Assembly: GCA_947442825.1 (NCBI GenBank)
Contig: CANEWU010000008.1
Location: forward strand, 1-32,712
Direction: 5' to 3'
Source of the DNA: Synechococcaceae cyanobacterium
GTDB taxonomy: Bacteria; Cyanobacteriota; Cyanobacteriia; PCC-6307; Cyanobiaceae
DNA: 32,712 bases
Both the position numbers and the translations under genes were made by a program. Below are positions 15,609 to 17,204 of this stretch, one piece after another. Position 1 is the first letter of the stretch. The number at the start of each line of letters is the position of its first letter. The notes beneath the pieces are model-generated. The model saw only the letters and a program-made list of their open reading frames with translations. It was not told the origin of the DNA and did not search any database.

Positions 15609-15971
15609 TCAGACCCGCAGCAGCGACTCGCAGCGCCGGCTCCAGTCGCTCTGGGTGCCGAGGCCGGCCACCAGGCGGCGATCGGCGGGCTCATCACGCA
15701 GGCACAGCTGCCACTGGCGGATCTGGTCAGCCCGCTCCATCCACACATCGAGAACGGTGCGCTGAATGGCCTCGAGATCCCAGCTGCGCTGGCGGGCGGT
15801 GTCGAGGGCCCAGCCCAGGAGCTCATCGAGGGTGAAGGGACGAAAGCCGGCGAAGGCAGGGCCGTGCGGGCCGGCGGGACCTTCGTCGCGCTCACCACTG
15901 GCACTGTGCTGCTCGAGATAGAAGAGCTGCAGGGGGTCTGATAAACCACACAACTGGACCAGATAGGTCAT
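15609..15971 (-). CDS. Conserved-type hypothetical protein (~120-126 aa)
   Basis: MTYLVQLCGLSDPLQLFYLEQHSASG...FRPFTLDELLGWALDTARQRSWDLEAIQRTVLDVWMERAD; the ORF extends to 15989 with an upstream Met. No family named. Confidence 0.65.
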   Translation of the reverse strand: MTYLVQLCGLSDPLQLFYLEQHSASGERDEGPAGPHGPAFAGFRPFTLDELLGWALDTARQRSWDLEAIQRTVLDVWMERADQIRQWQLCLRDEPADRRLVAGLGTQSDWSRRCESLLRV

Positions 15972-16085
15972 GGCCGGGACCTTCTCCAACCGGAAGGAAG
16001 CCCAGAGTAGTCAGCAGCAGCCTGGCAACTGTTCAGGGGGAACACATCGCCCCGATCCGCCACAATGCGTGGTTTCGTTGACAAT

Positions 16086-16112
16086 CTGGCACTCTCACTT
16101 CACGAGTGCCAG
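16086..16112. promoter_or_regulatory. CIRCE-like operator (HrcA site)
   Basis: Perfect inverted repeat CTGGCACTC-TCACTTCAC-GAGTGCCAG: 9-bp arms and N9 spacer, containing the GCACTC-N9-GAGTGC core of CIRCE (TTAGCACTC-N9-GAGTGCTAA). Confidence 0.65.
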
Positions 16113-16130: not shown

Positions 16131-17204
16131 CTACACCGCCGCCAGCTCGCGGGACCGGGCCGTGCGCACCGCTTCTGCCAGCTCGTCCAGCAGGCCGAGG
16201 GTGGTGGGCAGGTCGAGGCAGGCGTCGGTGATGCTCTGGCCGTAGGTGAGCGAGGAGAGGTCGGCGGGGATCTTCTGACTGCCAGCCACCAGATGGCTCT
16301 CGATCATCACGCCCATCACCTGGCGCGAGCCGCCGGACACCTGGGCGGTGATGGAGCGCAGCACGTCCGCCTGGCGGCGGTAGTCCTTGTTGGAATTGCC
16401 GTGGCTGCAATCCACCATCAGCCGCGGTGGCAGACCGTCCTGCGCCAGCTGGGCGGAGGCGGCCTCGATCGCCTCGGGCTCGTAATTGGGGCCGCCCTTG
16501 CCTCCCCGCAACACCAGGTGGCCATCCGGGTTGCCGGTGGTGCTCACGATCGCCGCGTGGCCTTCGGCGTTGATGCCCAGAAAATGATGGGGCCGGGCCG
16601 CGGCCTCCATGGCGTTGATCGCGGTGGCGGCGCTGCCGTCGGTGCCGTTCTTGAAGCCGATCGGCATCGACAGGCCGGAGGCCATCTCACGGTGGGTCTG
16701 GCTTTCGGTGGTGCGGGCACCGATCGCGGTCCAGCTGATCAGATCGGCGATGTACTGGGGCACCACCGGATCAAGCAGTTCGGTGGCGGCGGGCAGGTTG
16801 CGTTCGGCCAGATGCAGCAGCAGGGCCCGGGCCCGCCGCAGACCGGTGTTGATGTCGTAGCTGCCGTCGAGGTGGGGGTCGTTGATCAGCCCTTTCCAAC
16901 CCACCGTGGTGCGGGGCTTCTCGAAATACACGCGCATCACCACCTCCAGATCCTCGCGATGGCGGTGATGGGCGGCAGCGATCGCGTCGGCGTATTCGCG
17001 GGCGGCGTCGACGTCATGCACGGAGCACGGACCCACGATCACCAGCAGACGGGTATCGCCGGCGTGCAGGATCGCCTTGATCCGCTCGCGGGCCTGCTGC
17101 ACGGTGCGTGCGGCGGCTTCGCTGATCGGCAGCTCCCGGTGCAGCGCCGCCGGGGGCACCAGCGGCCGGGTCTCCACCACGTGGAGGTCGGAGGTGGGGA
17201 TCAT
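16131..17204 (-). CDS. aroG: 3-deoxy-7-phosphoheptulonate (DAHP) synthase, class I
   Basis: LLVIVGPCSVHDVDAAREYADAI, MRVYFEKPRTTVGWKGLINDPHLDGSYDINTGLR, ARTTESQTHREMASGLSMPIGFKNGTDG, YGQSITDACL. Confidence 0.94.
   Translation of the reverse strand: MIPTSDLHVVETRPLVPPAALHRELPISEAAARTVQQARERIKAILHAGDTRLLVIVGPCSVHDVDAAREYADAIAAAHHRHREDLEVVMRVYFEKPRTTVGWKGLINDPHLDGSYDINTGLRRARALLLHLAERNLPAATELLDPVVPQYIADLISWTAIGARTTESQTHREMASGLSMPIGFKNGTDGSAATAINAMEAAARPHHFLGINAEGHAAIVSTTGNPDGHLVLRGGKGGPNYEPEAIEAASAQLAQDGLPPRLMVDCSHGNSNKDYRRQADVLRSITAQVSGGSRQVMGVMIESHLVAGSQKIPADLSSLTYGQSITDACLDLPTTLGLLDELAEAVRTARSRELAAV

Follow-up and report, generated by a model that had tools for sequence, protein, structure and literature searches.

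What might a perfect CIRCE repeat control when its neighbours are the 3′ end of an aroG-like gene and a gene for a 120-aa protein, here called X? Regulons under CIRCE have few members, almost always chaperone genes. The repeat lies in a stretch of 32,712 nucleotides (the window, the whole of the DNA analysed) from a Cyanobiaceae genome of 2.5 Mb in 209 contigs. A sequence-only reading had called it an orphan CIRCE-like operator and a possible new HrcA target, and had proposed as checks that the genome should encode hrcA and that relatives should keep the repeat. The neighbours had been placed correctly in that reading; the aroG-like gene ends at 16131 and the 120-aa frame has its ATG at 15971, both on the minus strand. 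HrcA acts as a repressor and relies on GroEL for its activity (PMC7760821).

Table: Features of the X locus, in window coordinates.
Feature	Coordinates	Strand	Basis
Gene X, 120-aa conserved cyanobacterial protein, inferred HrcA target	15609..15971	minus	Frame kept in 37/121 family genomes and 60 outside
-10 element TACTCT (TANNNT), 20 nt downstream of the palindrome; inferred start ~15997	16004..16009	minus	Spacing constancy
Palindrome TGTTC-N5-GAACA, centre ~-40; inferred regulator site	16030..16044	minus	Alignment conservation; paired with the -10, all but exclusive to X in Cyanobium-like genomes
CIRCE operator CTGGCACTC-N9-GAGTGCCAG, centre ~-102 from the inferred gene X start	16086..16112	.	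Exact match; position shared by 68/73 relatives
aroG-like DAHP synthase, upstream neighbour, outside the unit	16131..17204	minus	Pfam PF00793 (DAHP_synth_1), E=6e-88

The repeat is a perfect inverted repeat with arms complementary at 9/9 positions (in full CTGGCACTCTCACTTCACGAGTGCCAG, including the N9 spacer), and it has the makeup that defines CIRCE, a 9-bp inverted repeat with a GCACTC/GAGTGC core and a 9-bp spacer. The exact core and N9 spacing claimed earlier are thus confirmed. Scanning the window with up to three mismatches allowed returned this site as the sole match (shuffled sequences yield 0.05), and an Rfam scan of the window gave no matches. In the whole genome, exact GCACTC-N9-GAGTGC cores number two, against about 0.15 expected by chance; the other, CTGGCACTC-N9-GAGTGCCAA, is found on contig C56 upstream of groES-groEL. 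The check for hrcA turned out positive, the gene being encoded in the same genome (PF01628, E=8.6e-28, G000 C22:3478-4122). Among genomes at least 90% complete, the CIRCE core is present in 26 of the 29 with hrcA and in 0/5 without it (Fisher p=0.0002). The family was scanned for the exact core and the sites were classified in the loci fetched; there, a full-consensus CIRCE is confined to groESL and X, save perhaps for L094, and the remaining exact-core sites are devoid of CIRCE-like outer arms. L094 itself carries a full-looking CIRCE, TTGGCACTC-N9-GAGTGCTGA, and neither groESL nor X was matched nearby. We also note a second groEL copy (L040, G000 C7:16429-17931), which has a Gly/Met-rich tail and no CIRCE.

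The repeat is indeed kept in relatives. Across 73 named public-genome loci, from Cyanobium, Synechococcus sp. WH 5701, Vulcanococcus and others, a CIRCE precedes X in 68, always 112-145 bp before the start codon, and in the family sample X is preceded, in about 25 of 30 loci, by a CIRCE whose core has no more than one mismatch. Within the 68 loci, the GCACTC...GAGTGC core is near-invariant (each of its 12 positions agrees in 56-68 of them), the N9 spacer drifts freely, and the outer three arm pairs vary mostly symmetrically. Since the element precedes the same gene in nearly all relatives, the label “orphan” is misleading, and the sequence evidence makes 16086-16112 very probably a true CIRCE operator. 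Three loci (L016, L146 and L154) have lost the CIRCE and retain the X promoter block described below.

Outside the family, a CIRCE-like site scoring at least 16/18 precedes 12 of 58 X relatives (one perfect), and one scoring at least 15 precedes 16 of the 58; in a shuffle control of 5800 windows none scored 16 or more and about two reached 15. These matches belong to families f2, f20, f23 (all eight sampled) and f29, and several families retain X without a clear CIRCE. The recurrence of such sites before X in several outside families suggests that the link between HrcA and X is either old or of more than one origin. In families f16 and f25, altered CIRCE-like repeats of the TTAGCAGTC-N9-..ACTGCTTA type lie upstream of X (L244, L277, L278 and L239), and may reflect a changed HrcA specificity.

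Starting about 19 bp past the stop codon of aroG, the repeat could fold on RNA into a 9-bp stem, and both features would also suit a terminator or 3′-end hairpin of aroG. The earlier reading had judged a plain terminator the weaker explanation and had seen no U-tract, and both points are borne out. Only one of the 68 relatives has four consecutive Ts in the 10 nt after the repeat, leaving 67 without a U-tract. Moreover, in two genomes of another genus (L085 and L090) a perfect CIRCE precedes X and aroG was not found alongside; that the CIRCE stays with X where the upstream neighbour differs argues against an aroG terminator. The bases themselves are conserved beyond what pairing alone would explain, the site recurs before X in other families, and the helical phasing described below indicates a function at the level of DNA. 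A hairpin serving aroG is consequently very improbable. As an intrinsic terminator in particular, the repeat was rejected: a G+C-rich stem with a U-tract was not found, nor does the repeat stay with aroG. In L085 and L090, the neighbour of X is a small gene, apparently divergent, whose product begins MPLINVRTS and looks tautomerase-like by eye. A chance repeat devoid of function, for its part, has next to no probability. One 12-base core is expected about 0.15 times in a genome of this size, but this one recurs at the same place in 68/73 named relatives and in other families. In sum, conservation with X, the presence of hrcA and independence from aroG support the new HrcA target suggested earlier, and it is highly likely that the repeat acts as a functional CIRCE, a predicted HrcA operator controlling X.

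For X itself, a profile search across the class found relatives in 65 of 195 genomes. In an aligned sample, those outside the family share 23-32% identity with the window's protein, and residues G9, L14, F17, L48, D49, W64, W77, W87 and L91 are invariant. Pfam and NCBIfam searches with X and its relatives assigned no family, the weak matches being due to chance, and a sequence search of solved structures with X returned one chance match, a designed protein. The AlphaFold model (36 sequences) has a pLDDT of 52, and only the helices at 48-92 are moderately confident. The conservation of CIRCE before X across many cyanobacteria nevertheless marks the protein as a likely, and likely overlooked, part of the cyanobacterial heat-shock response. 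Predicted control tied to that of groESL in many cyanobacteria provides a first functional lead for the family; from this putative co-regulation, one might guess that X is a GroEL co-factor, a GroEL client or a heat-protection factor.

Conservation points to a separate promoter for X, composed of the palindrome and the -10 element listed in the table. In 81 of 83 distinct loci, TANNNT follows the palindrome after exactly 20 nt, and in Cyanobium-like genomes the pair is essentially confined to X. A search of these genomes for a palindrome regulon gave matches only at X, so that no known regulator could be named; perhaps X itself binds the palindrome. The layout at groESL is different. In the family, the groESL -10 (TARGTT) runs into the left arm of the CIRCE, where the arm reads TTG in 38/38 cases, and the CIRCE overlaps its promoter. 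In Synechocystis, the mapped transcription start of groES lies inside the CIRCE loop (PMC2662882). In contrast, the CIRCE of X has no conserved fused -10, its left arm varies freely, and about 80-112 bp separate it from the inferred start downstream. Also at groESL, a block GGTCA[A/C]CCGCACAG is kept about 40-50 bp upstream of the CIRCE (L039, L041-L096, family), possibly as the site of another heat regulator.

The distance from the start of the CIRCE to the start of the palindrome falls into discrete classes: 46-49 bp (67 loci), 58 (6), 60 (3), 68-70 (5) and 77-78 (2). Pattern scans of 398 genomes, with all spacings of 39-100 allowed, found only 47-49, 58, 68, 77 and 78. The aroG tree requires at least six changes of spacing class. 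A period of 10.5 bp fits these changes with p ~0.001 (six events) or 0.004 (five events, conservative) when events are treated as independent, and seven events with a free period give p 0.002; all of these values are somewhat flattering because testing came after the period and the grouping had been spotted in those very data. The inferred CIRCE centres at X lie at about -82, -92, -102 (the window) and -112. CIRCE and promoter thus appear to be spaced in helical phase, through few independent changes, and if this phasing is genuine, the factor bound at the CIRCE must always lie on one and the same helical face with respect to the promoter complex. The phased spacing also yields a testable claim, namely that a distant promoter is within reach of HrcA.

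We therefore propose the following scheme, in which we infer that HrcA binds at X, which way it regulates, how contact is made and that heat induces the gene. X would be transcribed from its own promoter, with the palindrome near -40 and the TANNNT -10. An HrcA dimer located upstream would, at normal temperature, occupy a constant face of the helix relative to this promoter and lower its activity, the probable means being contact with RNA polymerase or with another regulator that sits on the palindrome. Once unfolded proteins occupy GroEL, HrcA would be released and X would rise together with groESL. Simple steric repression does not fit, because the site is at about -82 to -112 and not over the start. 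Retention of the promoter at the three loci without CIRCE suits a negative input. As for phased action of HrcA with a partner, the sequence comparisons leave it with roughly an even chance.

Spacings that step by about 10.5 bp ahead of a conserved promoter, and centres that resemble phased class I activator positions, would also be seen if HrcA at the CIRCE helped to activate X instead of repressing it. We think this unlikely, since HrcA is known mainly as a repressor and the promoters that have lost the CIRCE retain both palindrome and -10. Alternatively, the CIRCE might cover a second, upstream promoter of X, as it does at groESL, with the downstream promoter independent of HrcA. Such a layout would match the -10 fused to the groESL CIRCE in the same family, as well as the TA-rich bases found just before the left arm at some X loci, the window included (CATAGCTGG). 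However, no conserved -10 stands ahead of the X CIRCE, its left arm is free where groESL holds to TTG, and the phasing with the downstream promoter would be left unexplained, which makes a second promoter of this kind rather improbable. We thus favor repression by HrcA from the upstream site.

To our knowledge, HrcA acting in partnership with a second regulator, from an upstream site in helical phase, has not been described before. Among the papers searched, none was found to report an HrcA target of such kind in cyanobacteria, and a search for the motif of the stress regulator Rre1 and for Cyanobium heat transcriptomes gave no usable result. What is new at this locus is the conservation of CIRCE with X across cyanobacteria and a geometry unlike that of the usual CIRCE; the earlier reading had anticipated neither the reach into other families nor the placement in phase upstream of a separate promoter. 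We tentatively advance a broader reading, whose probability falls a little short of one half: X would be a core member of the HrcA regulon, conserved but so far overlooked, and a new small-protein family, controlled in Cyanobiaceae by a phased upstream HrcA and a dedicated second regulator, perhaps X.

The arrangement at X can be compared with three known systems. At class I activator promoters (CRP-type), an upstream operator can be placed only at intervals of about 10.5 bp, and the operator spacings at X appear to follow the same rule; unlike there, the protein expected at X, HrcA, is a repressor. With the cyanobacterial CIRCE/HrcA-groESL system (PMC2662882, PMC7760821), the locus shares an identical core, the N9 spacing, the type of arm and the presence of hrcA in the genome, and the arm CTGGCACTC is common to the X site and the groESL site of the window's own genome. 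It differs in its target, a non-chaperonin protein of about 113-120 aa, and in the placement of the site upstream of a separate promoter rather than over the start. In Campylobacter jejuni, HrcA and HspR repress cooperatively from sites 27 and 11 bp apart and are in direct contact (PMC7464140). Similarly, the predicted HrcA site at X is near the candidate site of a second regulator, at a spacing that fits cooperative binding; unlike in C. jejuni, the second site is the TGTTC-N5-GAACA palindrome and the spacing steps by helical turns, an arrangement that we infer from sequence.
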